From Amphiura filiformis (lineage: Eukaryota > Echinodermata > Ophiuroidea > Amphilepidida > Amphiuridae), in NCBI RefSeq assembly GCF_039555335.1, contig NC_092635.1, forward strand, positions 53,945,755-54,009,754: a stretch of DNA of 64,000 nt, written 5' to 3'. Both the position numbers and the translations under genes were made by a program. Each line of letters starts with the position of its first letter. Positions within the stretch are counted from its first letter, which is position 1. Positions 919-56,327 of the stretch are shown here, in pieces. A model generated the notes under the pieces. That model was not told the DNA's origin. It did not search any database and worked only from the letters and a program-made list of their open reading frames with translations.

Positions 919-1065
919 CGTTTGAGCATCCACCATGGTATGCTATTCTTAGCTGACGGTTTTTGTTGCAAGCTTCAAGTCCTAGTTTACAGCGGTTTGT
1001 GTAAGTCTTGCCATCTGTACCACACACTGGATAATACTCCTCAGTGCAGACTTGTGGGCAATAAT
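919..1065 (-). CDS. Kazal exon K24 (type C), last seen in the window
   Basis: 147-nt phase 1-1 exon; acceptor ...tttgacag, donor gtgtgtag. The domain has six cysteines with Cys1-x3-Cys2 (CPQVC), CTEEYYPVCG, NRC, EAC and GGC. The residue two after Cys2, the P1 position by analogy with ovomucoid third domain, is Glu, unique here. Sequence around KLGLEAC and LRIAY matches the C-type domains K8, K12, K16 and K20, consistent with its place after K22 (A) and K23 (B). The gene must continue beyond base 1 because no stop or 3' end is seen. Confidence 0.88.
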
Positions 1066-1830
1066 CTGTCAAATATCATGACAAAAGTGAAAATTGTTAA
1101 ACTTTTCAAAATTCCAAAACAATCCAAATAATGATGAATAGGCCTTGTCTTTCCAGGTTTCGAAATTCCAGGTTTTCTACAAATCACACTCAAGATGTTT
1201 AGGGTTTGTTGTAGGTGTGTAATTTGATTCACACACCTGGGACATCAAGTGTACTCCCAACATTTACTTTCTTAAAATTGACTGACTGATATTTCAATCA
1301 TTTAACAGTAATGACAGGATTCAATCTAAAGATGTTAAAAATAGATTGAAACAGATTTTTGGATTAACTTGCTCTGTTTATAGACTGATTTCACCATCAA
1401 ACTAATTGTTACTCCTTAAGTACTGGCAAATGGCATGCATTGCATCTTTTTATTTCAAAATCCAGTCGGCAAACGGTTGAAAAACAATGAAAAAAATTGT
1501 CCCTAACTTTAATAGCTAAGAGATTGAGAATCACTCCTTTCGGGTAGAATAAAAATACTTAGTCAAAAGCCATTGTCCCTAATTGCAATCAACAACAGAA
1601 ATGGTATGCACCTCAAAAGCCAGGATGAAGTTCATATAATTATTATCAGTGTGTCACAGAAAGGAAGTTACTTTTCATGACTAGGAAAGATTTACTAGCA
1701 ATCTGCTCCATTTCGCATGGTTCAATCCCCACCGTTTTTTTGCTCTCTCAGTTTATTCTATGTCAGTTTGCCCGAGCTTCTCTTTCAGCTTATTTTGTAA
1801 ATAAGTAAAAAAGATATTCCCTCTGCTTAC

Positions 1831-1977
1831 CTGGAATACACTCGCCAGCATACAAGACTCTCAAATCTGGATTGTTACTACAAGCTTCTTTGTTTAGTTC
1901 ACATCTGTTGGGGTAGGTTCTCCTGTCATTACCACAAACTGGGTTGTTTTCTGTATTGCAGACATCAGGACAACGTG
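1831..1977 (-). CDS. Kazal exon K23 (type B, divergent)
   Basis: 147-nt phase 1-1 exon, donor g|gtaagc, acceptor ttctttgcag. Six cysteines; CPDVC, then CNTENNPVCG, NRC, EAC, GEC. P1-equivalent is Thr. YPNRCEL and the DLRVLYAGEC end resemble the B-type domain K2, so it fills the B slot of the last, partial A-B-C-(D) module. Unlike the four B domains K7, K11, K15 and K19, it keeps Cys1-x3-Cys2 rather than x5. Confidence 0.9.
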
Positions 1978-2191
1978 CTGCAAAGAACAAAATCAACAAA
2001 CATTGACAGGATTAAGCACCATCATGAAAAATTGTCACTTGTAACAACACTTGGCTGTAGAAAGTAGCTCAATTTCCTTTGGCAAAATTAGAAATTAGGG
2101 TGCTTTGATTGAATCTGAAGGAAACAACTGAATAGAAATACTAGGAAACATAAGGTTTAAAATCTTTAACACAGTTTCATACACTCTTAGA

Positions 2192-2603
2192 TAGCGAGAA
2201 CCAATCAGAGCAAGCGTTAGAAAAATCAAAACCATGCATTTATTGTGTCTAATTGCACTCCGCGTACTACGCGCAGTGCTTTCGCGCGCATTCGCGTCTT
2301 GTAGGCTTGATTCATTTTTCGGGCGGGTTGATGCATTTATATTTGGTTCTATTTTCCAATATTTTTAGTGATAATTTTGTTATAAAAACAGCAAATATCA
2401 CATGTTTTTTTTTCTCGTGTATGAAATAGGTTAATGAACTTGTATTACTTGTTGCTCGAGAAATTAGACAAAATAATGCACTTGCGCTGATGTTGATGTG
2501 TCTAATGCACTCCCCCCTTCGGGGCTTGTGCATTAGACGCATCAACATCAGCGCGCGTGCATTATTTTGTCTAATTTCTCTTCCAACAAGTAATACGCGT
2601 TCA
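2192..2603. mobile_element. Hairpin-containing interspersed repeat (relative at 52447-52710)
   Basis: The segment 2192-2455 is clearly homologous to 52447-52710 (shared gtgctttcg, gcgggttgatgcatttatat, tttttagtga). It ends in a large palindrome: 2436-2515 and 2523-2603 are inverted copies, including aataatgca and ctgatgttgatg, around a short ccccttcgggg loop. Non-coding; a MITE-like family is the likely identity. Confidence 0.6.
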
Positions 2604-2668
2604 TTAACCTATATATCATATTAGGCCAATGCAACAATTAAAACAATTTAAGTGCTACCAATTTGTGC

Positions 2669-2820
2669 AATAATAAGTGTGTCATTTTGGTTCAGTTTTT
2701 GTGACATTTCTTCACCGAGTATTAATGATGAATTACAATAATAATGTAACAAACACATTATGATTTGCACAAGAGCATTCATTAGTGTATCACTTCTACT
2801 TGTATACAAGATTAGTGAAG
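2669..2820. repeat. Duplicated intronic segment (copy 2)
   Basis: Second copy of the roughly 145-bp segment at 264-410. The remainder of the K22-K23 intron up to 3305 has no feature I recognise. Confidence 0.6.
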
Positions 2821-3305: not shown

Positions 3306-3452
3306 TTCGACATTCTCCAACATGATCTACAGCAAGTTGGCCATTGTTATTGCAGGCTTCAACTTCCAATTGACATTGGTTGGCATAGTTCTGTCCATCT
3401 GTACCACAAACTGGACTGTAGTCTAGCGGACATACTGTTGGACATGGTGGTT
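3306..3452 (-). CDS. Kazal exon K22 (type A)
   Basis: 147-nt phase 1-1 exon; donor a|gtgagt, acceptor ttttag. Begins EPPCPTVCPLDYSPVCG, the A-type signature, followed by NQC, EAC and DHVGEC. P1-equivalent Leu. Opens the partial sixth module (A-B-C). It is shorter than the other A exons (153-156 nt) because the tail after the last cysteine (ISRG/FSRG in K6 and K10) is missing and splicing occurs right after GECR. Confidence 0.92.
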
Positions 3453-3506
3453 CTAAAACAAAAGGATACATATAAGTACAAATAGAAGTAAATCAAAACA
3501 TGTACA

Positions 3507-4757: not shown

Positions 4758-4913
4758 CTGTTGCACTGATGACACATTCACCAGCATATGCTGCTCTCAG
4801 GTTTTCATTTACAGTACAGGCTTCACGTCCTAAAACACATCTACTGGAGTAGGTTACACCATCCGTACCACATACTGGCTCATATATTGCAGGACACACT
4901 TCAGGACAATAAA
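4758..4913 (-). CDS. Kazal exon K21 (type D)
   Basis: 156-nt phase 1-1 exon, acceptor ctccatag, donor g|gtactt. CPEVCPAIYEPVCG, SSRC, EAC, then NENLRAAYAGEC, the D-type hallmark shared with K9 and K13. P1-equivalent Ala. Ends module 5 (K18-K21). Cys1-Cys2 spacing is x3, as in K17 and unlike K9/K13 (x5). Confidence 0.93.
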
Positions 4914-5490: not shown

Positions 5491-5569
5491 GACAAATTAA
5501 ACATAAAAGAATGAGCAGAAATACAAATTATTTTTCCTCAACGTTTGTTATAATAGGCGCGGGAAGGAA

Positions 5570-6650
5570 TAACATTGGGTTATTCAGTTGTAATCCATAC
5601 ACCCCCAGCAAACACAAAACGTTTTCGACATCATTCGCAAAAGGTTATAATAGGTTGTCAGAAAACGTTTAAATGTCGGGTTATATAAAGGGTATATTAA
5701 AAGGGCATTTCGTGATCCACAGCATCATCCCCCCACTTTTCTCAAAAAAAGTTGAGATTTTTATATCACTGGAAACCTCTTGCTACATAATGTTTATGCA
5801 CAAAATATTTCTTGCAGATTAATTCGTTTAGCACAGATATCGTGAAATTTGAATTTCGTTCTGGTGCACCAGAACGAAATTACAACACATTGTCTATGGA
5901 GCAGTGCAATATTCATAATCGTGCATGACTCGCAAACGCACAATCGGAAGCAACTGAAATTTTGGGAATAAGCTTTTTTTGTGGATATCTACTGAAATAT
6001 GTCATAAAAAGAAGATGCTAGGATCACGAAATACTCCTTTAAGGGTATAAAACGTTTTCATAACATTCAAAAACATTTTTGATAATCTACTGCCTAGCAA
6101 ACACATAATGTTTTACAGAAAACGTTTAAATGTCGGGTTATATAAAGGGCATAAAAACGTTTTATTAACATTCCAAAAACATTTTTGAAAACTTGATACA
6201 AAACATTCTAAACAGAATGTTATTTTGGTGTTGAAAAAAATATTTTGCGAAAAATGTTTTCCCAAAATATTTGCAATAACGTTTTAAAAACGTTTTCATG
6301 ACCTTTATATAACCCGACATTTAAATGTTATTAAAACGTTTCGATAAAAAGATTTTAAGAACATTTTTGTGTTTGCTGGGTGCAAATATTTTAATATAAT
6401 GTTATTTAAATGATGACAAAATATTTGGCATAAAATGTTTGCAAAAATAGTTTACAATAAAATTTTGAAAACATTTTTAAAATATTGCTGTAGTGTGTTT
6501 TCATACAAAACGTTTTAAAACGTTTTCATGTCCTTTATATAACCCGACATTTTAATGTTATTAAAACGTCTTTACCTAAACCAAAAGCCAAAATATAACT
6601 TATTTAAAACGTTTTAAAAACGTTTTTGTGTTTGCTGGGACCCTAATCTT
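5570..6650. repeat. Composite of 'tttgctggg / aacgtttt' interspersed repeats
   Basis: Repeated inverted and direct copies of gtgtttgctggg, aaaacgtttt and ataacccgacattt run through this stretch (for example 6290-6385 and 6500-6640, inverted relative to 6110-6180). A separate TTAA-type element (5698-6044) is inserted in it. No coding potential. Confidence 0.7.
5698..6044. mobile_element. TTAA-bounded MITE, family copy 1
   Basis: Starts TTAA|aagggcatttcgtgatcc and ends ggatcacgaaatactcct|TTAA, giving inverted termini next to TTAA, the target signature of piggyBac-type elements. Homologous copies lie at about 46450-46762 and 52086-52432. About 345 bp, non-coding. Confidence 0.75.
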
Positions 6651-7219: not shown

Positions 7220-7369
7220 CACTCAAACAGTCGCCATCATAAGCAACTCTCAATTGTGCATCATTATTAGCACAGGCTTCAAGTAATAGTTTACATCTGT
7301 TGGAGTAGGTCTTGCCATCTGAGCCACAAACTGGGGCGTATTCTGCAGTACAAACTTCTGGACATTCAT
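7220..7369 (-). CDS. Kazal exon K20 (type C)
   Basis: 150-nt phase 1-1 exon, donor g|gtaagt, acceptor tttttcag. DECPEVCTAEYAPVCG, then NRCKLLLEAC and LRVAYDGDCLSG. P1-equivalent Ala. Third member of module 5. Nearly identical to K8, K12 and K16. The intron to K19 is only 254 bp, the shortest between exons here. Confidence 0.94.
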
Positions 7370-7623: not shown

Positions 7624-7779
7624 ATGTTGGTTCACATCTTCCGTAGTAGATTCCTCTTAGAGTAGGTTTATTAGTACAAGCTTCTCTGCCTAGTTCACAT
7701 CTGTTGGAGTAGGTCTTACCATCATTACCACAAACTGGATCATATTTAGCTGTACAAGTTTGTACATGAGAACACAATT
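7624..7779 (-). CDS. Kazal exon K19 (type B)
   Basis: 156-nt phase 1-1 exon, donor t|gtaagc, acceptor cttcccccag. Cys1-x5-Cys2 (CSHVQTC), CTAKYDPVCG, NRCELGREAC, YYGRCEPT. P1-equivalent Ala. The donor splits a codon as T|.., so the B-C junction encodes Tyr with the 'at' that starts K20; the same junction holds in the other three modules. Confidence 0.94.
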
Positions 7780-8255
7780 CTGGGGGAAGGAAAATTAATA
7801 TCTTGTGATATATACATACTTCACAAAATAAAGCAGTAAAAATGAGCAATTATACTCACAACATAAGATTTCACCAATTTAATGATCGCTAACTCAAAGT
7901 AATCCACTTCATAGTGTGTCTAGTGGAAATTGGCTGCATCCTCATTCCCATGGACTCTACATTTATGTAATTTGTCTAAGTGCATTTTGGAATTCATAAG
8001 AATTGCACCAGCAATTCAGCAAGTGGAAGCACTGCATGCACAGAACAATCTTTTGTTTATTGCTGTATAGACTGGTGCACATAACATTAGAAAAAGTTAC
8101 CTTGTGTTGGCGAGCATAATATTGGCATAATAGGGACTCTAATTTAATAGGCACATATTTATTAAGCACTTACAACATGAATCTTGAAGCCCTGTACAAA
8201 GCATTAAACACATGAAAACAATATGCAAAAAATTACAGCGATTTAGAATGCATAC

Positions 8256-8411
8256 CTCTCCTTGAAACACATTCTCCTGCATAATTTACAGTAAGTTGGC
8301 TATTAGAATTACAGGCTTCAACCTCGAGTTGACATTGGTTGGCATAGGTCTGTCTATCGGTACCACACACTGGACTGTAGTCTAGTGGACACACACTTGA
8401 ACATGGTGATT
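8256..8411 (-). CDS. Kazal exon K18 (type A)
   Basis: 156-nt phase 1-1 exon, donor g|gtatgc, acceptor ctctaag. ESPCSSVCPLDYSPVCG, NQCQLEVEAC, YAGECVSRG. P1-equivalent Leu, shared with K22 only. Opens module 5. Confidence 0.93.
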
Positions 8412-11476: not shown

Positions 11477-11626
11477 CACTCAAACAGTCCCCATCATAAG
11501 CAACTCTCAATTGTGCATCATTATTAGCACAGGCTTCAAGTAATAGTTTACATCTGTTAGAGTAGGTCTTGCCATCTGAACCACAAACTGGATTGTATTC
11601 TGCACTGCAAACTTCTGGACATTCAT
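11477..11626 (-). CDS. Kazal exon K16 (type C)
   Basis: 150-nt phase 1-1 exon, donor g|gtaagt, acceptor gcttcag. CPEVCSAEYNPVCG, NRCKLLLEAC, LRVAYDGDC. P1-equivalent Ala. Module 4. Nucleotide sequence is near-identical to K8 and K20. Confidence 0.94.
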
Positions 11627-12157: not shown

Positions 12158-12313
12158 ATGCTGGTTGACATCTTCCATAGTAGAGTCCTCTTAAGTCAGG
12201 TTTATTAGTACAAGCTTCTCTGCCTAGTTCACATCTGTTGGAGTAGGTCTTGCCATCATTGCCACATACTGGGTCATATTTAGCAGTACATACTTGTGCT
12301 TGAGAACACCATT
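12158..12313 (-). CDS. Kazal exon K15 (type B)
   Basis: 156-nt phase 1-1 exon, donor t|gtaagt, acceptor cttcccag. Cys1-x5-Cys2 (CSQAQVC), CTAKYDPVCG, NRCELGREAC, YYGRCQPA. P1-equivalent Ala. Module 4; nearly identical to K11. It opens no long ORF of its own but has intact splice sites and all six cysteines. Confidence 0.94.
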
Positions 12314-13180: not shown

Positions 13181-13336
13181 CTCTGCTGAAAGCACACTCT
13201 CCTGCATGATCTACACTCAGTTGCTTATTCGTATTACAGGCTTCAAGTTGAAGTTGACATTGGTTGCCATAGGTCTGTCCATCTGTTCCACAAACTGGAC
13301 TGTAGTCTTGTGGACACACATCTGGACATGGTGGTT
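13181..13336 (-). CDS. Kazal exon K14 (type A)
   Basis: 156-nt phase 1-1 exon, donor g|gtatgc, acceptor ttgtacag. EPPCPDVCPQDYSPVCG, NQCQLQLEAC, DHAGECAFSRG. P1-equivalent Gln. Opens module 4. Nearly identical to K10, including flanking intron sequence (gaatgcatacctctgctgaa region). Confidence 0.94.
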
Positions 13337-15125: not shown

Positions 15126-15275
15126 CACTCAAACAGTCGCCATCATAAGCAACTCTCAATTGTGCATCATTATTAGCACAGGCTTCAAGTAATAGTTTAC
15201 ATCTGTTGGAGTAGGTCTTGCCATCTGAGCCACAAACTGGGTCGTATTGTGCAGTGCAAACTTCTGGACATTCAT
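15126..15275 (-). CDS. Kazal exon K12 (type C)
   Basis: 150-nt phase 1-1 exon, donor g|gtaagt, acceptor tataccag. DECPEVCTAQYDPVCG, NRCKLLLEAC, LRVAYDGDCLSG. P1-equivalent Ala. Module 3. About 28 bp of downstream intron (acttaccact back to atctttctat) is shared with K8. Confidence 0.94.
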
Positions 15276-15991: not shown

Positions 15992-16147
15992 ATGCTGGTT
16001 CACATCTTCCATAGTAGAGTCCTCTTAAGTCAGGTTTATTAGTACAAGCTTCTCTGCCTAGTTCACATCTGTTGGAGTAGGTCTTGCCATCATTACCACA
16101 TACTGGTTCATATTTAGCTGTACATACTTGTGCTTGAGAACACCATT
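15992..16147 (-). CDS. Kazal exon K11 (type B)
   Basis: 156-nt phase 1-1 exon, donor t|gtaagt, acceptor ttcccag. CSQAQVC, CTAKYEPVCG, NRCELGREAC, YYGRCEPA. P1-equivalent Ala. Module 3. Complete cysteine set; nearly identical to K15. Confidence 0.94.
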
Positions 16148-16771: not shown

Positions 16772-16927
16772 CTCTGCTGAAACCACACTCTCCTGCATGG
16801 TCTACACTCAGTTGCCTATTCGTATTACAGGCTTCAAGTTGAAGTTGACATTGATTGCCATAGGTCTGTCCATCTGTACCACAAACTGGACTGTAGTCTT
16901 GTGGGCACACATCTGGACATGGTGGTT
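16772..16927 (-). CDS. Kazal exon K10 (type A)
   Basis: 156-nt phase 1-1 exon, donor g|gtatgc, acceptor tacatag. EPPCPDVCPQDYSPVCG, NQCQLQLEAC, DHAGECGFSRG. P1-equivalent Gln. Opens module 3. Confidence 0.94.
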
Positions 16928-20401: not shown

Positions 20402-20551
20402 CACTCAAACAGTCGCCATCATAAGCAACTCTCAATTGTGCATCATTATTAGCACAGGCTTCAAGTAATAGTTTACATCTGTTGGAGTAGGTCTTGCCAT
20501 CTGAGCCACAAACTGGGTCGTATTCTGCACTGCAAACTTCTGGACATTCAT
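20402..20551 (-). CDS. Kazal exon K8 (type C)
   Basis: 150-nt phase 1-1 exon, donor g|gtaagt, acceptor gcttcag. DECPEVCSAEYDPVCG, NRCKLLLEAC, LRVAYDGDCLSG. P1-equivalent Ala. Module 2. Confidence 0.94.
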
Positions 20552-21124: not shown

Positions 21125-21280
21125 ATGTTGGTTCACATCTTCCGTAATAGAGTCCTCTTAAGGTAGGTTTATTAGTACAAGCTTCTCTGCCTAGTTCACA
21201 TCTGTTGGGGTAGGTCTTACCATCATTACCACATACTGGTTCATATTTACTTGTACATACTTCTGCTTGAGAACACAATT
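21125..21280 (-). CDS. Kazal exon K7 (type B)
   Basis: 156-nt phase 1-1 exon, donor t|gtaagt, acceptor ttccacag. CSQAEVC (x5), CTSKYEPVCG, NRCELGREAC, YYGRCEPT. P1-equivalent Ser. Module 2. Confidence 0.94.
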
Positions 21281-22077: not shown

Positions 22078-22230
22078 CTCTGCTTATAGCACATTCTCCT
22101 GCATAATCAATGGTAAGTTGCCTGTTGTTACTGCAAGCTTCAACTTCTAGTTGACATTTGTTGCCATAGGTCTGTCCATCTGTACCACAAACTGGACTGT
22201 AGTCTTGCTGACACACTTCTGGACAAGCAA
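22078..22230 (-). CDS. Kazal exon K6 (type A)
   Basis: 153-nt phase 1-1 exon, donor g|gtatga, acceptor atatcag. VACPEVCQQDYSPVCG, NKCQLEVEAC, YAGECAISRG. P1-equivalent Gln. First domain after W2, opening module 2. It lacks the EPP start of the other A exons. Confidence 0.93.
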
Positions 22231-23353: not shown

Positions 23354-23491
23354 CTGGCTGCATACACTCACTGCCACATCCATTGGAACAGCACTTGTCA
23401 GCACCTTGACAGTGTGAATCCTGTCTACAGAAGGTAACACATCTACCTACTGTGCCAGCAGCAATTGCTGGGCATAGGCCTGCTTTGGGAC
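23354..23491 (-). CDS. WAP (four-disulfide core) exon W2
   Basis: 138-nt phase 1-1 exon, donor g|gtgagt, acceptor ctttttgcag. The eight cysteines are GLC, GRC, TFC, SHC, KCC (two), NGC and SEC, the complete whey-acidic-protein pattern. WAP domains are small secreted modules, often serine-protease inhibitors or antimicrobial. The exon starts with 'gt', which completes a TGT cysteine codon with the terminal T of K5, the nearest upstream exon, 26.4 kb away. Confidence 0.92.
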
Positions 23492-40965: not shown

Positions 40966-42030
40966 CACTACGCAAAAAAAGTTTCTTTATGGTTAGCAAA
41001 GTTACCCACTATTAAAATCTAGCGACTTATTTTGTACGTTTACTAAATAATCGCATGCGGTGATTGTCCTTCGCATTTTTACACCTCAATCACTACCCTA
41101 CGGCACTCCTGAGAAAAGATATGAATGTTTAGGTAACACGAGGTCGAAAAATAAAAATTACAAAAAGGCCTATTCAAGTTTTCAGCATAAAAGAACACAA
41201 AAAAACAACAAACATGCAGGTAATATTTTTTGTTTACTTGCTGAGCACATTTCAGGCATCATACTGCCGCTTCCAACTTCACTTGAGATTAATCTCTTTT
41301 CTTTCAGCACTTTGTGTGTCCACCGTTGATTCCCTTACACAACAACCACGCCGCCGTGTCTCATGCTCCTAATGAGGCGTCGAATGTTACCATGCCCAAT
41401 CCCGTTCCACTCATTGATAACGATGCGGACTTAATCATACCAGAGTTATATGTATCTGCCTTTATCTTCCTGTTGACTCGTCTCTTGAGCTGATCCCAAA
41501 GGTTCTCCAAGGGGTTAAGATCAGGGCTTCTGGAGGGCCACTCAAGTGTCTCAATTCTTTCTGTTTTGGTAACATATTGAACATACAGTATTTTCCAAAC
41601 TGCTGTAATCATGACCTGTTTTGAATCCCTTTTCCGAACCCATCTCTCAAAACAAAACGTAAATGTCTTAGTACCCACTCACCTTTGTTTTTGATCATTC
41701 ATCTGCACAATAAACAAAGGATTATCCAACATGCAGCAAGGAAAATGCTTTAAATTCAAATTGAAAAGGCGGGAACAATGAAACCGTCTTCGATTAGTGA
41801 ATCAGCTCTAAAACCATTGAATATGCTTCTTTGCAATTTTTTATTTTTCGACCTCGTGTTACTTAAACATTCATATCTTTTCTCAGGAGTGTCGTAGGGT
41901 AGTGATTGAGGTGTCAAAATGCGCAGGACAATCCTCCGCATGCGATTATTTAGCAAATGTACAAAATTAGTTGCTAGATTTTAAAAGTGGGTAAAATTCC
42001 TAACCATAAAGAAACTTTTTTTGCGTAGTT
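40966..42030 (-). mobile_element. Tc1/mariner element, decayed, with TA duplication
   Basis: Starts cactacgcaaaaaaagtttc and ends with the inverted gaaactttttttgcgtagtt; inverted similarity extends about 200 bp (including actcctgagaaaagatatga). TA flanks both ends (40964-40965 and 42031-42032). The paralogous unit after GPCR copy 3 has the uninterrupted site gtgatatagttgacctgt at about 47518, which proves insertion. Confidence 0.93.
41361..41678 (-). pseudogene. Tc1-like transposase C-terminal fragment
   Basis: The 105-codon ORF contains [20 protein letters not shown], the conserved block around the second Asp of the Tc1 DDE/D catalytic triad. The upstream helix-turn-helix and first catalytic Asp regions are missing or out of frame. 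The C-terminus runs into unrelated residues. The element is about 1.07 kb, below the usual 1.3-1.6 kb for complete Tc1 elements, so it is internally deleted and inactive. Confidence 0.85.
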
Positions 42031-42032: not shown

Positions 42033-44366
42033 GTTGACCTGTTTGGTCTACATTATGTGTGTTAAAGAAAGTAGACAAAAGTATAGGACTTAATAAATAG
42101 GATTTTGTCTTTGGTGGAAAAACAGTGAGTGTTTTACATAATGCAAACAAGTACTTCACATTATACTTTTGGTACATGAAAAAAAAAAGATATAAGAAAA
42201 AAAAAACTTTTCCCGACCGACCGACCCAACTTCTGAAAGTGATCTATGGACAAGCAAATAATTTATTTTTTTGGCCTAATGAGCTGATCAAATTGCAAAT
42301 GAAGCAAATATGAACAGAGAACAACATTATAACATTCAGAGGTGTAGGCATAGAACAATAATGACACAATTAAGTAAATTGGTTTGTTGCTCATTATCTA
42401 GCTAGCTGGCAAGCAAGACAGAGGTAGCTTTAACAATCAACACATTTATGGTTTCACACAGGCAGCATGTGACAGATATTTACATCATTGCAGTTAGTTT
42501 TGACATGTAACTCAAATATATATCTTGATGTCAAACCTCAATATACTACACTAAAGGGAATTTTAATGTGAAGAACTGCTTGGCCTTTTGTTGTTCAAAA
42601 GTGGTCCAAGTGCAATCTTATATTTTTCAAACTATTTAATCTGTGTGGTGTGCATCTGGGTATGCATGTGCCAATAACCACGGATGGAGTAATATTGGAG
42701 TAATGGACCAATGTTGACATCAATTAGACAGCAACAGCAGATGGCAATCCTGCTATAAGTCAACAAACACTGATGCAATGGTGCTGTTAGCTCTCGGTAA
42801 TCATCATATCAAGTGTGATCTTTGATGCAACATTTAACTCAGACTGAACAATAGAAGTCAAACTAGATAGTATTGTAGACACTTATTTTATCTGGCAAAC
42901 AGCTCTATCACAAAATACACAGTAAAACTATAATGTGATGGTCAAACTAGTTTCAAATCATCACATCAAATTGTGCATTCTAACAGTCTAACTGAGAACA
43001 ACTGAAATCAACCCACTGTTTGCACAGTGAAACTATGATTCCAACAATGAAACCAGTTTAAAATCATCATAGTTCATCGAGCATGGATTTATGCAACTGA
43101 AATGAACTTTGGGCTCTCTAAATTGCTCAACTTATTGGAGATAATGTGCCACAAACGAAAGCCACCAAGTTGTTATCTAAGTATCACTATACGTTTTATT
43201 GCACGAGACAAATTTATATTAAGGAGAGGAATTACTGTGTGTGTACCTCCACCATGTAAAAAAAAAGCGCAGTGATATATAGTGCGCTACGCACAGGCAC
43301 AACGCCTAGACATTGATCCGCAAGCGTCAGCACAGTTTACAGGTTGTCGCTGACCACTATGGCCCACATCATTCCATAAACCATTTAACAACAAATAAGG
43401 GACTTTGCTGCTACAAGAGCGCACAACGCCCTAGACATTCCACAAATAACCATCGCAACCAGGATCAGCTCCCCGAGTTTCGTACATGTTACAACAAGAC
43501 AATTAGCAGTAAGTTCCTGGTCCAGGAGAATTTCAAGCTAACTCCACAAGAGCATACTAGGCACCGCCAGGGCTCGAACCTGCAACCTCTTGCACCATAG
43601 TCGAAGGCCTTAACGATTGAGCTAACTTGTACTGTGTTAACTGACCTTACCGTTTGAACTTAGCAGCCTGGAGAATATCTACTTCATGGAAAGCTCTAAT
43701 GTAATGCAACGTGTTGGTTTTTGACAACAGGATTATTCTAAATCAATAAACATAAAATTTCCGACTTGTAATTACTAATGGATATCAAGGAGCAAATTCA
43801 AAAAGTTACTTTGAAGATGACAGCAGTTTTATTCATTGCTCATTGAAACTTATTTTTAAACTGTTTGAAGTTAAGATTTTATAGCAGAATATATGTCTAG
43901 TATAAGTGCAACCTGTAGCAGAATATATATACTTGATGTTAGTGATATCAAGTGTTATGTCACATAGTTTTTTAGAAGTTATGATTGTATTTGATTTGTA
44001 TATCTTGATCAAAATGTTGCATGTTTGTATTTGAACACAGATCCTGATTTGACATATTCTATTTCTTTCAATATCATTCTAATTTTCTATTGTATGCCTT
44101 TCTAAACTAATTAGGTTAAATTGTTAAATGTTAAATCTTCTAATAATTTGTTTGGCCCACTGACCAAAATGTGTGATCTGAAATGTTATGTGTACTGATT
44201 TATACTTTCTGATTGTAAAATTTTTTTGTGATATACTAATATTATAGCAAGCATTTGAATTTAATTTTGCACTTAAAAAAACAGATCGTATATAAGTATG
44301 TTATTTTCTTATTGTACCAGTCATCATATATTTTAACTAGCTATATGTATTACCTACTGAACCATA
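42033..44366 (+). other. 5' flank of GPCR copy 3
   Basis: Homologous to the other GPCR flanks; carries SINE-like copy 2 at 43259-43626. A TATA-like tatataag lies at 44289-44296, about 70 bp before the ATG; remnant 1 has gtataag at the equivalent place. Confidence 0.6.
43259..43626 (-). mobile_element. tRNA-headed SINE-like element, copy 2
   Basis: Same insertion point and orientation as 35388-35721, bounded by ccaccatgta and cttgtactgtg. B box on the minus strand reads GGTTCGAGCCC. It is longer than copy 1 at its low-coordinate end (cgcagtgatatatagtgcgc). Confidence 0.7.
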
Positions 44367-45887
44367 ATGGGTAGTGTAAGCATCATTGAAGGGGTATGGG
44401 CTGCTGCTATTGTTTTAATTGGTATCCCAGGGAACATACTCATACTTGTTGTCTTGTTTTCCCGACAGCTGATCCGTAAAGCACAGTATTTCATTTTCCT
44501 ACTTGCTGTAGCTGATCTCCTTTTCTGCCTCAATTTGCCCTTTGCATATTTTGCTCATTGGTATCTTTCCATTGGTTCTGCAGGGATAATTATTTCCAGT
44601 ATTTTGGTATTTTTACAATCGTGGGGTTTTTTCTTACTTGGTTGTGCTGCTTTTGAGAGATACACAGCAGTTAGAAATATCGTCAGGAGACGCTTGAGTA
44701 CAAAATCTGTCATTTTGTTGACTTTGCTGAGTGTCTTTAGTGCAGCATTAATAACATGCAGTCATTTTCTTCCTCATGTAAGTGGAGAAGGATTTCAACC
44801 CAAGCAAATGCTGCAACTTGTATTAGTACCTAACATAATCCTGACTGTTGTATGTCATGTTCGTATAGTAAGGCAGCTGAATAGACAGATTGCACCAGAA
44901 CCAGTCGCACCTGTTGAGCTTGATCAGCCAGCAAATAGGCCAATAGAGATGTCAAATATCAAGCAAATCCACCTTGATGCATCAGTGCATTCACCAAATG
45001 ACAACACATCAACAAGTTGTCAAACGACAAAGGAATCATGTGATGACCATTCTATATCAACAACAAGACCCACAGCAAAGATTCAGCATAAAACACCTCC
45101 CAAAAAGGACAATGATTGCCTCCAACCAGATCCAGCACTTCATGCTGTTTTATCCTCTCACACAATGCAGCTACAATTTGAACTCCAAAACAGTTTCCAA
45201 CCCGCATCAACATCTAACAAAGAGATTTCAAAAGAGGCAAATCACAATCATCTAGAAGACAGCCAACTCCACAACAGAAAAAGTTGCAAGAGAGTTTATG
45301 AAGATAAGATATCAGCGGCTGACATCAGCCTTAATTTCACAAATTTAAGCCATGAAGTTCAGTGCTCTGATGGCTTGTTGGATATAACACCATCAACCTC
45401 CAAATATGAAATTCCAATGCACCATCTAACAAACCAAGACAAAGATGAAAATATGTGGAAGGTTCTACCTGGTGTTGTCACCTCTGAACAGAATTCAGAT
45501 GAAACAAGTTTTATTGATTGTGTAAAAAGATTTTCCACCCATCTACCTGAGACAGATCACCCTGATGACTCCTCTCCAAACATTCCTACACTTAGTGCCT
45601 CTTGAGACAATGAAGCACTGCATCAATATCATTTCTTAAGGAAAGTGTCCATGATGCTATTAATTGCAACAGCAGTTTTCTTTATTACTTATGGGCCAGT
45701 CATTATAATATTTTTCATGTCAAGTGCAGATCCAAATCTTAATCATTTATTATTTACTTTAACAAGGGACCTTTCATTCATTAATAGTTGCATTAATCCA
45801 TTTATTTACAGCTTTGTAAATAAAAGTTTCCGTGATGAATGCAAGAGGATATACCAAAGAATGCGACAATATTTTAGAAACCACTAG
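44367..45887 (+). pseudogene. Class A GPCR, copy 3, full length with one in-frame TGA
   Basis: 506 codons before the final TAG, interrupted only by TGA at 45603-45605 (codon 413), at the end of the third intracellular loop. The sister genes read tctgaggac where this reads tcttgagac, consistent with a one-base gain and a one-base loss that restore the frame. Everything after the stop stays open and well conserved, including helix 6 with TYGP (Pro at the CWxP position, which copies 1 and 2 lack) and NPFIY. Helices 1-5 and ERY are intact. As read, the product would be a 412-aa five-helix protein. It could be a young pseudogene, a readthrough product, or an assembly error. It is more diverged than copies 1 and 2 are from each other, especially between helices 2 and 3. 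Confidence 0.75.
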
Positions 45888-47636
45888 GTCTAAAAGAGAT
45901 ATACAGTTATTTAAATTCACAACCTAAAACATAAGACCAACTTATCAATATTTTGAAAGAGTATGTAAGTTGTTATAAAAAAAACCCTGACCCTGCTATT
46001 GCCGGTTCATAGATAATCTACAGAGAAGACTATTGTTGTCCTTTTTGTCCTCTTTGTTGTCCAGTATGCTCTGAGTATCACAACAAACCCGTTTTTATTC
46101 TGTAGCTACTTTTGTACGAGGACATGATATTTGAAGAAGTTCAATTAAGTTTGTGGAAATTATGGCTTTCATCTTGACAAAACCAATTAATTGACTTTGT
46201 CCTGACAGTTTTGGCTATCACTGGATCAACTGCCCAAATCCGGATTTGACTTGTTTTTAAATTCACATTGCGTATGAATTATTTACAATAAAGGGACCAG
46301 TGCTTTAGCTTCAGAGGGCAGCAGTGAAACAGGATTGAATCCCTAAATAATTCATTTTAATCACATGGGGGGCTAAGGCACCCACCCGCTCTCGTAATTC
46401 TATTTGAAACATACACTTCCTGTGTGAAAGAATAAGTTCAAACAACAAACTATTAGAGAACAAACATTTTTATACCACTGGAACCCTCTGGCTACAAAAT
46501 GTTTATATACCAACAATTTCTTGCAGATTAATTCGTTTAGCAAACACAATCTTCAAATTTGAATTTTGTTCTAGTATACCAGAACGAAATTACAACACTG
46601 GCCTATGGAGCAGTGTAATAGGCCTACACATAATCATGCATAACCCACAAATGCAAAATCAGAATCAACTGAAATTTTAGGAATAAGCTTTTTTTTTGAA
46701 TATATATTGAAAAGTGTCATAAAAAGAGGATGTTAGGATCACAAAATCCTCCTTTAAGCTTTTATGTAGGTATTATCATCACAATTGTGGGAATAGCATG
46801 AAGAACAAGCTAGGTGGAAAGGTTGTCAAATTCAGAAACCTTTTTTCGATTTGCTTGTTGCAGAACATTACCAGATACCGTATTGTCTGTAATAAATGCC
46901 TTGGGGGCATTGCATTTTTCCAAAAGGGTTCCAAAATCTGGTTCAATTTCCCAATGGTGCTCCCGTAGAAAGGAGAGATTTACCATTATACTAATACTAC
47001 TACCATGGTGGCACCCATGGAAATCGAGTGAAAAATTACATTCTCATGGTAAATAGTAAATACAACAAAATTACAACTGCAAGTGCATCATAAAGCAAGA
47101 ATCTGGTGAAATTCTACCATAATAAGATTATGAAATGGATGGAAGTTTGAGTCATAATAGGTTTTGTCCATGCAATTTAGCGATCGTCACTGATGTGACT
47201 GACATGACTGATGCAAGTTTTAAGCTTACTCACACGATATGGCATGGAAATGTTTATATTTTTGTCAATTTTTCACAGAAAAATTGGAGGGAGCGTTTAT
47301 TAGAGGGGGAGTGTTTACATTCCATGCCAACTCAACAAGGGGTATATACCATACCTCATGGATTTTCGTCTTAGTTTGAGTATTAATAGATATCAATACC
47401 CAATACGGTAGCATTATTGTGTTCACAGATAGCTAGCTATGTAGTTTGATCAGCTCGTAATCAGTGGGAAATGTTAGGCTTTTAAAACTATGCCCCAAAG
47501 TAGACCCACATTAAAAGTGATATAGTTGACCTGTCTGTTTTATATTTTATGTGTTACAGATTTGATGAATGTAAAGAGTGTGCAAATGTTCTATATTTTT
47601 TGGATAAATTTGTGAAGTGTTTGTATTAAATTGTTA
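45888..47636 (+). other. 3' flank of GPCR copy 3
   Basis: Starts with the shared ggtctaaaag tail, then diverges. It contains a partial TTAA-type MITE (46450-46762) and, at 47440-47570, the empty-site counterpart of the Tc1 insertion. Open frames at 46814 and 47135 have no recognisable domain. Confidence 0.55.
46450..46762. mobile_element. TTAA-bounded MITE, family copy 2 (left end degraded)
   Basis: Matches 5698-6044 from ttttatac...ctggaaccct to the right end ggatcacaaaatcctcct|TTAA. The left terminal repeat is not clear. Confidence 0.6.
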
Positions 47637-49351
47637 AGGTAGCATAATTATGATCACTGGTAGGTAGCATAATTGTAATCACAGATAGGTAGCATAATTG
47701 TGATCACAGAAAGGTAGCATAATTGTGATCACAGAAAGGTAGCATAATTGTGATCACAGAAAGGTAACATAATTGTAATCACAGATAGGTAGCATAATTG
47801 TGATCACAGAAAGGTAACATAATTGTAATCACAGAAAGGTAGCATAATTGTGATCACAGAAAGGTAACATAATTGTAATCACAGATAGGTAGCATAATTG
47901 TGATCACAGAAAGGTAGCATAATTGTGATCACAGAAAGGTAGCATAATTGTAATCACAGAAAGGTAGCATAATTGTAATCACAGATAGGTAGCATAATTG
48001 TGATCACAGATAGGTAGCATAATTGTGATCACAGAAAGGTAGCATAATTGTGATCACAGATAGGTAGCATAATTGTGATCACAGAAAGGTAGCATAATTG
48101 TGATCACAGAAAGGTAGCATAATTGTGATCACAGAAAGGTAACATAATTGTAATCACAGAAAGGTAACATAATTGTGATCACAGAAAGGTAGCATAATTG
48201 TGATCACAGAAAGGTAACATAATTGTAATCACAGATAGGTAGCATAATTGTGATCACAGAAAGGTAGCATAATTGTGATCACAGAAAGGTAGCATAATTG
48301 TAATCACAGATAGGTAGCATAATTGTGATCACAGATAGGTAGCATAATTGTGATCACAGAAAGGTAGCATAATTGTGATCACAGATATGTAGCATAATTG
48401 TAATCACAGATAGGTAGCATAATTGTGATCACAGAGAGGTAGCATAATTGTGATCACAGAAAGGTAATATAATTGTAATCACAGATAGGTAGCATAATTG
48501 TGATCACAGAAAGGTAGCATAATTGTAATCACAGAAAGGTAGCATAATTGTAATCACAGATAGGTAGCATAATTGTAATCACAGATAGGTAGCATAATTG
48601 TGATCACAGAAAGGTAACATAATTGTGATCACAGAAAGGTAGCATAATTATGATCACAGAAAGGAAGCATAATTGTGATCACAGAAAGGAAGCATAATTG
48701 TAATCACAGAAAGGTAGCATAATTGTGATCATAGAAAGGTAGCATAATTGTGATCACAGAAAGGAAGCATAATTGTAATCACAGATAGGTAGCATAATTG
48801 TGATCACAGAAAGGAAGCATAATTGTAATCACAGAAAGGTAGCATAATTGTAATCACAGAAAGGTAGCATAATTATGATCACAGAAAGGAAGCATAATTG
48901 TGATCACAGAAAGGTAGCAAAATTGTAATCACAGAAAGGTAGCATAATTGTGATCATAGAAAGGTAGCATAATTGTAATCACAGAAAGGTAGCATAATTG
49001 TAATCACAGATAGGTAGCATAATTGTAATCACAGATAGGTAGCATAATTGTAATCACAGAAAGGTAGCATAATTGTAATCACAGAAAGGCAGCATAATTG
49101 TAATCACAGACAGGTAGCAAAATTGTTATCACAGAAAGGTAGCATAATTGTAATCACAGAAAGGTAGCATAATTGTAATCACAGAAAGGTAGCATAATTA
49201 TGATCACAGAAAGGTAGCATAATTGTAATCACAGAAAGGTAGCATAATTGTGATCATAGAAAGGTAACATAATTGTAATCACAGAAAGGAAAGGTAGCAT
49301 AATTGTGATCACAGAAAGGTAGCAAAATTGTAATCATAGAAAGGTAGCATA
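47637..49351. repeat. 25-bp minisatellite, about 68 units, with palindromic TGTGATCACA
   Basis: Unit aaggtagcataattgtgatc + acaga, exact period 25 (for example 47701, 47726, 47751, 47776). Many units contain the perfect 10-bp palindrome tgtgatcaca; others have tgtaatcaca. A few coordinated variants recur (aacat for agcat, gatagg for gaaagg, ggaagcat). One unit near 49287 has an extra aaagg. There is no spacer variation, so it is not CRISPR-like. Confidence 0.97.
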
Positions 49352-49459
49352 ATTGTTGAATAATACCAGTTGAACTCAAGGCAACTTGATTGTTAGTTGC
49401 TCTGCAAAGTTAAGCTGTGACTGAATTAGAGATTAATGTCAGTGCATCAGTTGTTTTGA

Positions 49460-49760: not shown

Positions 49761-49894
49761 CATTTTGCTTTTGAAAACAAGGAATATTGCCCCCACAAGA
49801 TATATTCTGCAGTCTAAGCAAAATATTTAGATTCTTCAAAATTCCTAAAAAATAACTGCTGCAAAGTCATTTGAATTGGTTAAAAACTACTCAC

Positions 49895-50035
49895 AGCTTC
49901 CAGTATGAGCCACTGTTAGTTGTCTGTTGTTAGTGCAAGCTTCAACTTCCAGTTGACATTGGTTGGTATAGGTCTGTCCATCTGTACCACAAACTGGACT
50001 GTAGTTAGTTGGACATACATCTGGACATGGTGGTT
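49895..50035 (-). CDS. Kazal exon K5 (type A) with split last cysteine
   Basis: 141-nt phase 1-1 exon, donor t|gtgagt, acceptor tttatag. EPPCPDVCPTNYSPVCG, NQCQLEVEAC, AHTGS then the sixth Cys. P1-equivalent Thr. The exon ends ...AGC T, so the sixth cysteine exists only if the next exon starts with GT (or GC); W2 starts with GT. Skipping W2 and joining to K6 (starts TT) would give Phe and lose the disulfide. It is an extra A domain outside the ABCD modules. Confidence 0.9.
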
Positions 50036-51867: not shown

Positions 51868-52023
51868 CTGTAGGAGGCTGTACACATGCACCACCATATG
51901 CTGCCCTCAAGTTTTCATTGTTGTCGCATGCTTCTTTTTCTAATTCACACCTGTTAGAGTAGGTGTTACCATCTGTACCACACACTGGTGCATAGACTGA
52001 TGGGCACACACTCGGACACACTT
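51868..52023 (-). CDS. Kazal exon K4 (type D)
   Basis: 156-nt phase 1-1 exon, donor g|gtaaag; acceptor best placed at tttgtccag, although the upstream tract is weakly pyrimidine-rich. CPSVCPSVYAPVCG, NRCELEKEAC, NENLRAAYGGAC, QPPTG. P1-equivalent Ser. An extra CPEVC-like string overlaps the acceptor, so a slightly different start is possible. The NENLRAAY match marks it as D; it closes module 1. Confidence 0.87.
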
Positions 52024-52085
52024 CTGGACAAATATAAATCATATTTATATGTATGAGGTTAATATTGTTTATATCAATGTCCTTA

Positions 52086-52432
52086 AAAGGCATTTTCATG
52101 ATCCACAGCACCATCCCTCCACTTTTCTCAAAAAAAGTCAAGATTTTTATGCCACTGGAAACCTCTGGCTACATAATGTTTATGTACACAATTTCTTGCA
52201 GATTAATTAGTACAGCAAAAATATCGTCAAATTTGAATTATATTTTGATTTACCAAAATGGAATTACAATAGTGACCTATGGAGCAGTGTAATACATAAC
52301 ACATAATCATCAATAACTCGCAAACGCAACATCAGAATCAACTGAAATTTTTGGAATAAGCTTTTTTCGTGTATATCTGCTGAAAAATGTCCTAAAAAGA
52401 GGATGCTAGGATTACAAAATACTCCTTTAATC
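52086..52432. mobile_element. TTAA-bounded MITE, family copy 3
   Basis: TTAA|aaggcattttcatgatcc to ggattacaaaatactcct|TTAA; interior parallels 5698-6044 throughout. It sits just upstream of exon K4. Confidence 0.75.
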
Positions 52433-52446
52433 AGTTCATGTCAGTG

Positions 52447-53257: not shown

Positions 53258-53663
53258 TTAAAGATCTCAGTAAGGGCAATGCAATGCCTGTCATTATAAT
53301 CTATTGTTAAAGATCTCATTAAAGTATAATTAGTAAAATCCTAATTAAGTGCAGCCCATGGTTATGACACACCTAGACTTGTCTCTGTAACGTTTGCCAT
53401 ATTAATTACACGGTTTGTCTCAGAGCTCCTTTTCCTTTTTTTGTGTTTTTTTGTATTTCAAACCAAATAACATTATCATCTAACACAACATGTTTATTCT
53501 GTCGGTCCGTGCCACGTCACTTCCGGTTGATGATGCGACTCACGGTCGGAAAACAAGTCCCTGATTCGATTATTGTTGATGATTTCTGTCATTGGTGTTA
53601 TGTAAATTTCGATCGCAAATAGTCAGTGGAATCAAACAACCGTTTCTAAGTCTTCAGAGTGGA

Positions 53664-54384
53664 GTGGAGGGAGGGGAGGGGAGGGGAGGGGAGGGGAAAG
53701 GAGAGGAAAGGAGAAAAGAGGGGAGGAGAGGAGAAAAGAGGAGAGGAGAGGAGAGGAAGGGAGGGAGATGAGAGGAGAGGAGAGGAGAGGAGAGGGGAGG
53801 GGAGGAGAGGGAAGGTGAGGGGAAAAGAGGAGAGGAGAAAAGAGGAGAGAGAGGAGAGGAGAGGAGAGGAGAGAGGAGAGGAGAGGAGAGGAGAGAGAGG
53901 AGAGGAGAGGAGAGGAGAGGAGAGGAGAGAAGAGAAGAGAAGAGAAGAGAAGAGAAGAGAAGAGAAGAGAAGAGAAGAGAAGAGAAGAGAAGAGAAGAGA
54001 AGAGAAGAGAAAAGAGAAAAGAGAGAAAGAAGAAAAGAAGAGAAGAGAAGAGAAGAGAAGAGAAGAGAAGAGGAGAGGAGAGAGAGGAGAGGAGAGGAGA
54101 GGAGAGGAGAGGAGAGAGAAGAGAAGAGAAGAGAAGAGAAGAGAGAAGAGAAGAGAAGAGAAGAGAAGAGAAGAGAAGAGAAGAGAAGAGAAGAGAAGAG
54201 AAGAGAAGAGAAGAGAAGAGAAGAGAAGAGAAGAGAAGAGAAGAGAAGAGGAGAGGAGAGGAGAGGAGAGGAGAGGAGAGGAGAGGAGAGGAGAGGAGAG
54301 GAGAGAGAGAGAAGAGAAGAGAAGAGAAGAGAAGAGAAGAGAAGAGAAGAGAAGAGAAGAGAATAGAAGAGCAGAGAAGAGAAT
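53664..54384. repeat. Polypurine tract of (gagag/gagaa)n pentamers, about 720 bp
   Basis: Almost exclusively A and G on the plus strand in blocks of ggaga and agaag pentamers. It opens long frames on both strands (REEKR-rich on plus; LLFSS-rich, up to 322 aa, on minus) that are low-complexity artefacts. It lies in the K3-K4 intron. Confidence 0.97.
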
Positions 54385-54800
54385 ATTCTGTCTAATGTAC
54401 ATGTATTCCCAAATTCAAAAAAAGTGTGCACCAAATTGCACAAATCCTGTTTGAAAAATAAAATTTCCAGCTTCTGAGGGGGCATATCCCACCTCAGACA
54501 CCCCCTGTGCACGCTTACGCGTGCATGTTGGCGCTTACAAGCCAGATTTGCCCCCCCTTTCCAAAACCTTTCGCCGGCCCTAAAGGTAAGGCTGAATATC
54601 TTTCTTTCTACCAAGTTATGTTACCATGGATCTTGGGGATGCATGTATATGTACCCGTGGATGGATGGAGCGAGGGATAAGCAATTACCAGGCTCCTTCC
54701 TGATATAATTTATTTATTCTTTATTATTTTATTTACTCTATTTTATTTTTCATTATATCACTATTTATTTATTACTTAATATAATTTATTTTCTACTCAC

Positions 54801-54953
54801 CATCTAGACAATTTCCTGCATAAGCAACCCTTAGCTGTGAGTCCCCTTTATTGCATGCTTCCCTTTGTAACTGACACTCATTTGGATACACCACACCATT
54901 GCTACCACAAACAGGGTCATATAACGAGGTACAAACATCTGGACAGTCATAAG
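54801..54953 (-). CDS. Kazal exon K3 (type C)
   Basis: 153-nt phase 1-1 exon, donor g|gtgagt, acceptor gttttcag. DCPDVCTSLYDPVCG, NECQLQREAC, QLRVAYAGNCLDG. P1-equivalent Ser. The LRVAY..C.G end and the extra residue before it match C-type domains. Third member of module 1, more diverged than modules 2-5. Confidence 0.92.
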
Positions 54954-55308
54954 CTGAAAACAGAAAATCATACCAAAGGCTACAATCCTGGGAAAAAAGA
55001 TTGCCACACGAAAGTTGGCCAACAATACAGGATAAACTCAACTTGAAAAAAAGTTGGGTTGTTTGTAAGTTTGAAAGTTTATTTTTACAAACAATAACAA
55101 AAAAAAATACACTGCCATTCTCTTCTTAATTCAGTGGCATATCCAGGGGGGTACTTTGGGCGCTGAAGTCCCCTGCACTTTGTTAAAAATCATGTAAATC
55201 AGCCGTTTTTTTGGCGATTTTAGCCAATAAGCCCCCGCATAACTCTGAAAGCCCCTCTGAGCCCCCGCAGGAACAGATCCTGGTCACGATGGTGCAATTG
55301 ATACTTAC

Positions 55309-55455
55309 TTGGAACGCATTCTCCAGCATAGAGCGCCCTCAAGTCTGTCTGTCCACTGCATGCTATTCTGCCTAGTTCACATCGGTTAGGGTAAGTTGTA
55401 CCATCATTACCACAGACAGGCTCATATTTCCTTGAGCAGGCATCAGGACAAAGAT
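55309..55455 (-). CDS. Kazal exon K2 (type B)
   Basis: 147-nt phase 1-1 exon, donor a|gtaagt, acceptor tacacag. LCPDACSRKYEPVCG, NRCELGRIAC, LRALYAGECVP. P1-equivalent Arg, the only basic one among the 24, so this is the best candidate trypsin-type inhibitor. Module 1. Confidence 0.93.
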
Positions 55456-56171
55456 CTGTGTACAAGAAAAGGACAAGTGACTTTAAATGAAATTAATATT
55501 TTTTGAAAGTAGTATAAGAAATGTTGTAATTATTGTAGTAACATTTTCAAAACGTCTAACTGGGGTAACACTGAAGCTATTTTTCTATTATGTTATTTTC
55601 AATATTTCAATTACTTCCTGAAATTACTGATTTTTATAATTATTTCCAAATACTTTTGACAATTTTAAGTGCAAATTGCAAGAACATTTTATGATTTCTT
55701 ACCAATTTTACACATAAAATGAAGAGGATTTACAGATTTTCTTAAAACAACTGGGATGTCATTCCAGGATTTGCATAGACAACTGAAAAAGGTTTAGCTA
55801 ACAAAGTTTGTTCTGCACTTATGGGATAAATGAAAGACTGACAAAAACAGCATACAGACTGAAGGAGTGCTAATTTGCGTGCAAACTATGTAGATTAGAT
55901 TATTATCATAAAAATGAATCTGCAAATTAGACCCCCCAAAAAAAAACAAATAGCAGCCAGAGTTTCTGACCATGACCTACCTATGATAAAAAATCCACAG
56001 TCAAACCCTCAATCATGTAAGAGCTACATTATCTGGATAGATAAAGGTAATTATGATGGTACAGACGGGCTTTGCAAAAACAATACACCTGACGGTGGAG
56101 GCATAAAAATTGACATGGCTTTAGAAACAAGGGCACAATTGATTAACTTTGCTTTATTTTGATATACTCAC
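55456..56171. other. Intron K1-K2, nothing recognised
   Basis: AT-rich intron. An 82-codon plus-strand frame at 55914-56162 abuts K1 and has no domain signal. Confidence 0.6.
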
Positions 56172-56327
56172 GTGTAAGACATTCTCCAACATGGAATAAT
56201 TCAGCTTTTGGATCGTGCTTACATTTATATATTTCTAGCTCACACAAATTACTGAAAGTATTATAATTCACCCCAATCTTTCCACACACTGGACTGTAGT
56301 CTGCAGTGCATATCTGTGTGCAGGATT
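56172..56327 (-). CDS. Kazal exon K1 (type A, divergent)
   Basis: 156-nt phase 1-1 exon, donor c|gtgagt, acceptor tactgcag. SCTQICTADYSPVCG, then an altered Cys3-Cys4 stretch (GKIGVNYNTFSNLC, 13 residues between the cysteines instead of 10), KC and VGEC. All six cysteines are present. P1-equivalent Ala. DYSPVCG places it as type A at the head of module 1. The usual G(T/N/S)DG(K/Q)TY motif is lost. Confidence 0.87.

Follow-up and report, generated by a model that had tools for sequence, protein, structure and literature searches.

The locus described here raises the question of how a long array of Kazal domains, each encoded by its own exon, acquired and kept a fixed order of four domain types. 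It lies in a stretch of 64,000 nucleotides (the window) from the ophiuroid Amphiura filiformis (RefSeq assembly GCF_039555335.1, contig NC_092635.1, positions 53,945,755 to 54,009,754 of the forward strand). An earlier note, made from the sequence alone, had reported 24 Kazal exons of four types (A, B, C and D) which follow each other in strict order, interrupted by one WAP exon, and had taken the whole four-exon block as the duplicating unit. We find that the array is a higher-order repeat of four exon types, in which the identity between exons of the same type is largely limited to the exons themselves.

Four exon types in a fixed order

All 24 exons were found at the claimed positions, all on the minus strand, in a six-frame search with a local hidden Markov model seeded with ten Kazal peptides of the window itself; the 24 domains scored 72-86 bits, the next match in the six frames 7.2 bits. 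In the direction of transcription they read ABCD (module 1), a single A exon (A1b, the seventh member of type A), ABCD four times (modules 2 to 5) and ABC (module 6), as the earlier note had it. Among exons 6-24 (19 exons, modules 2-6) the mean amino acid identity between exons one, two, three and four places apart was 56, 57, 56 and 84%, respectively, and 81% at a lag of eight; when all 24 exons were included, it was 76% at lag 4 and 55-57% at lags 1-3. A period-4 statistic and a type-label statistic were each reached in none of 20,000 shuffles. The shuffles together with the lag identities rule out chance or the duplication of neighbouring exons as the origin of the order. The finding named beforehand as fatal to the repeat, neighbouring exons as closest relatives, did not materialize: in 22 of the 24 exons all nearest neighbours were of the same type, the nearest neighbours of B6 were B1 and D4 in a tie (30/45 each), and A1 was nearest to B3, B4 and B5 (21/45 each), with A6 at 20/45.

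The expected four clades were recovered in part: types A and B are firm when A1 and C1 are left out, C is weak and D is paraphyletic. In the protein tree of 24 exons a single branch set off type A (90/74) and another one type B (99/97); C and D required two changes apiece, and the sum for all four labels was three changes, which is the minimum. In the corresponding DNA tree B (55/0) and D (57/86) were each set off by a single, weakly supported branch, A and C were split, and the total was four label changes; the approximately unbiased (AU) test rejected neither a clade A (p 0.33) nor a clade C (p 0.45) on this tree. Without the long branches A1 and C1 the protein and the DNA tree had three changes, A and B being starred. 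The earlier note had told the types apart by short signatures. Two protease-contact positions have a different consensus residue in each of the four types: P1' has D, K, E or I, and P18' has Q, E, K or V. Its statement that the B-C junction codon is T|AT (Tyr) in modules 2-5 was also correct; the junction is A|CT in module 1 and G|AT in module 6.

The 24-exon trees, the shuffles, the silent distances, the triplet scan and the P1 and contact counts given below were made with a D1 core that included four intron residues. The tests on modules 2-5 contain no D1, and when the lag table and the nearest neighbours were redone with the corrected D1, the lag values were unchanged.

The linkers, measured from the last cysteine of one domain to the first cysteine of the next, are short within modules (3-6 residues in 17 of 17; A-B 3-6, B-C 4-5, C-D 4), whereas the D-A linker has 8-9 residues and ends with TEPP or TESP in all five cases. 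The longer D-A linker supports the view that ABCD may be a protein module, and the tetra-Kazal unit could, as was proposed before, also be the functional unit.

The Kazal exons and their boundaries

One Kazal domain corresponds to one exon throughout. All 24 exons have the six cysteines of the Kazal pattern, lengths that are multiples of three and an AG acceptor; 23 have a GT donor, the sole exception being A1b, and these 23 are in phase 1 at both ends. Phase 1 had served as a criterion in locating the splice sites; when it was dropped, the closest upstream AG was again in phase 1 for all 24 exons. The donors of A3, C2-C5 and D5 were set by hand from the consensus. The outer coordinates given earlier, 919 and 56327, are true exon edges. 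The exons are, in the order of transcription:

56172..56327, minus strand: Kazal A1, module 1, a long branch; P1 Ala; Pfam Kazal_2, 37.4 bits
55309..55455, minus strand: Kazal B1; P1 Arg, the only basic P1 of the array
54801..54953, minus strand: Kazal C1, a long branch; P1 Ser
51868..52023, minus strand: Kazal D1; acceptor TTTGTCCAG|AA at 52024/52023
49886..50035, minus strand: Kazal A1b; in-frame TAG one codon past the last Cys, no GT donor
22078..22230, minus strand: Kazal A2
21125..21280, minus strand: Kazal B2
20402..20551, minus strand: Kazal C2
19668..19832, minus strand: Kazal D2
16772..16927, minus strand: Kazal A3
15992..16147, minus strand: Kazal B3
15126..15275, minus strand: Kazal C3
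14251..14415, minus strand: Kazal D3; same protein as D2
13181..13336, minus strand: Kazal A4
12158..12313, minus strand: Kazal B4
11477..11626, minus strand: Kazal C4
9023..9181, minus strand: Kazal D4; divergent from D2, D3 and D5
8256..8411, minus strand: Kazal A5
7624..7779, minus strand: Kazal B5
7220..7369, minus strand: Kazal C5; AlphaFold2 model with Kazal fold
4758..4913, minus strand: Kazal D5
3306..3452, minus strand: Kazal A6
1831..1977, minus strand: Kazal B6; divergent
919..1065, minus strand: Kazal C6; divergent, with a weak donor GTGTGT followed by an in-frame TAG (GGT GTG TAG)

The possibility that D1 is a broken exon without acceptor was ruled out, the acceptor shown above being in phase 1. 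Another AG three bases further is also in phase 1, and the residues CPEV ahead of D1 are intron.

Identity largely limited to exons

In the 24 same-type exon pairs of modules 2-5 the match extended past the exon by a median of 8 nt on the upstream side and 6 nt on the downstream side. In intron blocks at least 100 nt away from the exons, the 24 same-type pairs were on average no more alike than 96 different-type pairs. Exons C2-C5 have 94-99% DNA identity (C2, C3 and C5 98-99%), and yet introns of different modules are unalignable past short flanks. The possibility that the assembly contains artificially duplicated identical blocks is unlikely, as the introns differ.

The silent distances differ by type. 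They are 0-0.03 among C2, C3 and C5 and 0.16-0.71 among A2-A5, and D4 is at 0.59-0.75 from D2, D3 and D5. Between modules 2 and 3 the proportion of changed silent sites is 46% in A, 10% in B, 0% in C and 12% in D (chi-square p 1.9e-5), and silent divergence differs among the four types at p < 0.05 in five of the six module pairs, which are not independent of each other. Among introns longer than 260 nt, those at the same junction were weakly more alike (p 0.024), in a comparison that also contains strong scores between different junctions, due to dispersed repeats. In the intron-block, silent-divergence-by-type and same-junction analyses the end of D5 was three bases off.

The window provides its own control for duplication, in the form of tandem reading frames of G protein-coupled receptors (GPCRs) located between the two groups of Kazal exons. 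Three GPCR copies (the fourth, a remnant, was omitted) are 89-92% alike over the first 900 coding nt, and their upstream flanks have 84-96% identity out to 800 nt, a figure based on the aligned columns alone (136-197 in each block of 200).

Exons D2 and D3 share with B2-B5 the longer spacing between the first two cysteines, and D3 is B-like in this region. A short B-to-D exchange is possible there; it was not significant after correction.

Residues at the protease-contact positions

In Kazal domains the contact positions are P6-P3', P14', P15' and P18', ten of them being hypervariable (PMC1236909). In CrSPI-1 P3 is a cysteine and P1 stands two residues on (PMC3082530); likewise, the P1 of the array is two residues past the second cysteine.

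The minimum number of replacements in modules 2-5 was 25 in 40 contact codons vs. 22 in 119 others, and that of silent changes 7 vs. 31. This enrichment was reached in none of 20,000 permutations (Fisher p 0.0015). For modules 1-6 there were 54 replacements in 39 contact codons vs. 82 in 117 others (Fisher p 0.0014). Tested by permutation, types B (p 0.003), C (p 0.011) and D (p 0.001) were each enriched, and in C2-C5 all four replacements fell on contact positions. Cysteines and gapped columns were excluded from the contact and loop tests, except for one earlier loop run which excluded only the loop cysteines and gapped columns. The contrast of the loop from the first to the third cysteine was picked after inspection of the alignment; the contact positions were taken from the published list, but the test was run after that first inspection.

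P1 is Ala in nine of the 24 exons, Gln in five, Ser and Thr in three each, Leu in two, and Arg and Glu in one each, thus a small, neutral residue (Ala, Ser or Thr) occupies P1 in 15 of 24. The nature of the P1 residue is linked to the protease target. Because P1 is mostly small and neutral, the array would suit elastase- or subtilisin-like targets rather than trypsin.

Fold and predicted function

The three exons submitted to Pfam (A1, C5 and D3) all passed the Kazal cut-off. The spacing between the first and second cysteines is three residues, and five in B2-B5 and D2-D3. AlphaFold2 was run on one exon of the 24, C5, with the other 23 as alignment; the model had a predicted local distance difference test (pLDDT) score of 94.5, and Foldseek matched it to the ovomucoid third domain, a SPINK2-derived inhibitor and a follistatin-like protein. 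When C5 was compared with the sequences of solved structures, the top summed score belonged to agrin, by virtue of its many Kazal domains, followed by ovomucoid and then the follistatins, whereas the best single-domain match was the anemone elastase inhibitor. A search for relatives of C5 in viral contigs found none. The product of the array is likely a secreted, multi-headed serine-protease inhibitor; its inhibitory function is predicted from the P1 tally and the enrichment at contact positions.

WAP exons and gene ends

The WAP exon between A1b and A2 was confirmed; a second, WAP-like exon upstream of A1 had been overlooked:

61472..61645, minus strand: WAP-like exon 1, upstream of A1; AG/GT flanks, phase 1 on both sides
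23354..23491, minus strand: WAP exon 2, upstream of A2; phase 1 on both sides; Pfam WAP (PF00095), 49.6 bits, cut-off 20.8

The exon at 61472-61645 has eight cysteines and a Pfam WAP score of 19.0 bits, which is below the cut-off, hence we call it WAP-like only. A loose match to the WAP pattern at 8151-8237 was excluded from the counts. The six-frame domain-pattern searches of the window covered Kazal and WAP.

The array is probably two genes rather than one, because A1b contains a complete domain and then runs into a stop (GAG TAG) without a donor, and likely is the terminal coding exon of a first gene. With a WAP-type exon heading both halves, the simplest layout would be two head-to-tail genes, WAP-ABCD-A and WAP-(ABCD)x4-ABC. 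C6 may close the coding sequence of the second gene, or the array may run on past the window. The best candidate start exons, at 29741, 36803 and 44713, were discarded as antisense to GPCR frames; the remaining candidates had weak donors or none.

Neighbouring features

The gap between the two Kazal groups contains four intronless, tandem GPCR frames of the rhodopsin type:

29395-30927, plus strand: GPCR frame
33090-33401, plus strand: GPCR frame, a remnant
36457-38190, plus strand: GPCR frame
44361-45602, plus strand: GPCR frame

Three of the four were submitted to Pfam and all matched 7tm_1. Long matching blocks among the four, flanks included, are 75-92% alike. A search for relatives of one of these receptors in prokaryote genomes found none. 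Other features are:

47636-49356: tandem repeat with a 25-bp unit, 68.6 copies, about 500 bp past the A1b stop in the direction of transcription
24416-26561: tandem repeat with a 152-bp unit, about 97% matches, about 1 kb upstream of WAP exon 2
53657-54383: long purine tract (AGAGA/GAGGG) in the C1-D1 intron
5697-6042, 46466-46758 and 52083-52430: dispersed repeat of about 290-350 bp, copies 82-84% alike, two of the three in C-D introns
41364-41678, minus strand: fragment of a DDE-type transposase (Pfam DDE_3, 34.9 bits)

A search of the window with Rfam at the gathering threshold and a tRNA scan found nothing.

Discussion

The explanation that we favour, and consider somewhat probable, is that the window contains two inhibitor genes made of WAP and Kazal-array exons, in which an old block duplication was followed by exon-sized conversion within types, with the scaffold being held and the contact residues changing. 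The two genes would be paralogous and arranged head-to-tail: a short one, WAP-ABCD-A, with a stop codon, and a long one, WAP-(ABCD)x4-ABC, possibly continuing beyond the window. Phase-1 introns on both sides of the exons (A1b excepted) would allow the addition of whole exons without breaking the frame. The old duplication of a four-exon block would have fixed the ABCD order, and exons of the same type would then have been homogenized singly by gene conversion, in tracts reaching no further than the exon edge or slightly beyond it, since the introns were by then too different. Conversion within types would keep the four types apart. Selection would hold the scaffold, the contact residues would change at about the neutral rate, and the copies would thus offer many related but differing loops.

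The whole four-exon block as duplicating unit is still the most economical origin of the order, but the present similarity is unlike that of recently copied blocks, the introns being unalignable and the silent distances differing by type. It is very unlikely that whole blocks were recently duplicated in tandem together with their introns and without exon-specific exchange. Such an event would produce the strict ABCD order with its period of four and agree with the D-A linker being the longest, with the weak same-junction intron similarity (best for D2>A3/D3>A4, A3>B3/A4>B4 and A4>B4/A5>B5), and with the 39-95 nt of upstream intron which 8 of the 24 same-type pairs have in common. It does not account for introns that are at background past about 100 nt when C2, C3 and C5 are 98-99% identical, nor for unequal silent distances among the four types of one module pair, and the GPCR duplicates of the same window did retain their flanking homology. 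As the introns do not match as the silent sites do, recent block copying is disfavoured. The weak similarity of same-junction introns fits an old block duplication that included the introns, and the largely exon-limited identity, the type-unequal silent distances and the retained GPCR flanks together favour an ancient duplication with exon-sized conversion. The main rival to conversion is selection on silent sites. An old block duplication followed by strong purifying selection, extending to silent sites through splicing enhancers or codon use, would explain conserved exons and diverged introns together, and replacements in the scaffold are indeed suppressed. Nevertheless, we regard this as distinctly unlikely: silent distances range from 0-0.03 (C2, C3 and C5) to 0.16-0.75 (A exons and D4), and selection on silent sites alone would hardly make neighbouring exons of one gene differ so much.

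The layout and the function of the array can also be read otherwise. A single gene, WAP-ABCD-WAP-(ABCD)x4-ABC with A1b skipped or used as an alternative end, is possible, though we doubt it. All exons are on the same strand and compatible in phase 1, and the 27 kb gap lacks a convincing start exon for a second gene; on the other hand, A1b is complete, has a good acceptor and meets its stop one codon past the last cysteine, which gives it the look of a terminal exon, in each half ABCD comes after an opening WAP or WAP-like exon, and GPCR frames on the opposite strand separate the halves. As for function, the domains could be structural or binding Kazals of an extracellular-matrix or growth-factor-binding protein, similar to agrin or follistatin, and not inhibitors at all. 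The summed scores of C5, with agrin on top and follistatins after ovomucoid, point in this direction, and agrin-like Kazal proteins are present in echinoderm skeletons (PMC4336488, PMC5460417). We consider a structural role unlikely: the replacements cluster at protease-contact positions, the best single-domain solved match is an elastase inhibitor, and the array consists of bare Kazal domains joined by short linkers.

Several observations weigh against the explanation by two inhibitor genes and exon-sized conversion. The matching tracts are not strictly exonic: the upstream similarity mentioned above concerns A3/A4, A3/A5, A4/A5, B2/B3, B2/B4, B3/B4, B3/B5 and D2/D3, and three of the 24 pairs (A3/A4, B2/B4 and C2/C3) have 43-86 nt of downstream intron in common. 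Silent divergence was estimated from a small base of about 30 silent sites per exon. Gene conversion within types is inferred as the cause from the pattern of similarity; when 10,534 triplets were scanned for mosaics, C2-C5 with the parents C1 and B5 were the sole case to pass correction (p 0.007-0.03), a suggestive result that consists of four related, non-independent rows and involves the long branch C1. Taken singly, type A was not enriched at contact positions by permutation (p 0.35), and by the Fisher test none of the four types reached significance (p 0.06-0.15). Because the 25:7 ratio of replacements to silent changes at contact positions is close to the neutral expectation, we take these residues to change freely, at about the neutral rate, rather than under positive selection. 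The search for an exon with start codon or signal peptide gave no convincing candidate for either gene; within 1,500 nt after A1b the only poly(A) signal was the variant ATTAAA at 49552, and the 918 nt between C6 and the edge of the window contain no AATAAA or ATTAAA. Given this lack of a start exon and the uninformative poly(A) signals, the whole array may yet be one gene, in which A1b is skipped or serves as an alternative end.

It is instructive to compare the array with known systems. The non-classical group I Kazal inhibitors (anemone elastase inhibitor 1y1b/1y1c, CrSPI-1, crayfish inhibitor; PMC3082530) are similar in having six cysteines, a short distance between the first two, P1 two residues past the second cysteine, invertebrate origin and single or several domains. 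The named members, such as CrSPI-1 of the horseshoe crab and the four-domain crayfish inhibitor, have one, two or four domains and a different set of P1 residues, and none with four alternating types in repeated order was seen in the passages of PMC3082530. The Pot II inhibitors of Solanaceae also combine tandem inhibitor repeats and a conserved cysteine scaffold with a changing P1, but they are plant proteins of a different fold with eight cysteines, and the passages of PMC2259423 do not mention an ABCD super-repeat; P1 is positively selected in Pot II (PMC2259423), whereas in the Kazal array we have enrichment only. Ovomucoids, too, are known to have diversified their reactive sites while the scaffold stayed fixed (cited in PMC1236909). 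Nebulin and titin (PMC7109182, PMC10665226) resemble the array in their ordered super-repeats, with homologous positions several domains apart; they are, however, muscle scaffolds with structural registers, and here we deal with one-exon inhibitor heads of largely exon-limited identity. WFIKKN/GASP proteins (PMC3427181) also have a WAP followed by a Kazal-type domain, to which WFIKKN adds Ig, two Kunitz and NTR domains, whereas here a Kazal array follows, as seen in searches that covered Kazal and WAP only.

Multi-Kazal proteins, reactive-site diversification and domain super-repeats are thus each known separately. A similar number of domains occurs in a protein of S. maritima, which we take to be the centipede Strigamia. 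That protein has 24 putative Kazal domains, and the passages of PMC5673224 give neither type order nor intron structure. An ordered Kazal super-repeat was not described in the literature that we searched, which consisted of the titles and abstract openings of up to 10-20 papers listed per search and left most subscription papers outside. The combination of changing contact residues with largely exon-limited identity in an ordered four-type array was likewise not found in this literature.

Multi-headed inhibitors are commonly taken for plain domain repeats, whereas the order, the linkers and the contact residues found here suggest a four-headed module. We tentatively propose that the array may work as a diversification device within the gene, in which conversion between exons of the same type keeps the four heads in order, and the contact codons escape homogenization and diversify. 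If this less certain idea is true, the gene would keep a ready library of loops, mounted on four scaffolds that stay fixed. The largely exon-limited identity amounts to a natural experiment, which sets the homogenization of a scaffold against the change of binding residues in one and the same gene. It also calls for caution with arrays of this kind, in which a high similarity of exons does not date the duplications.

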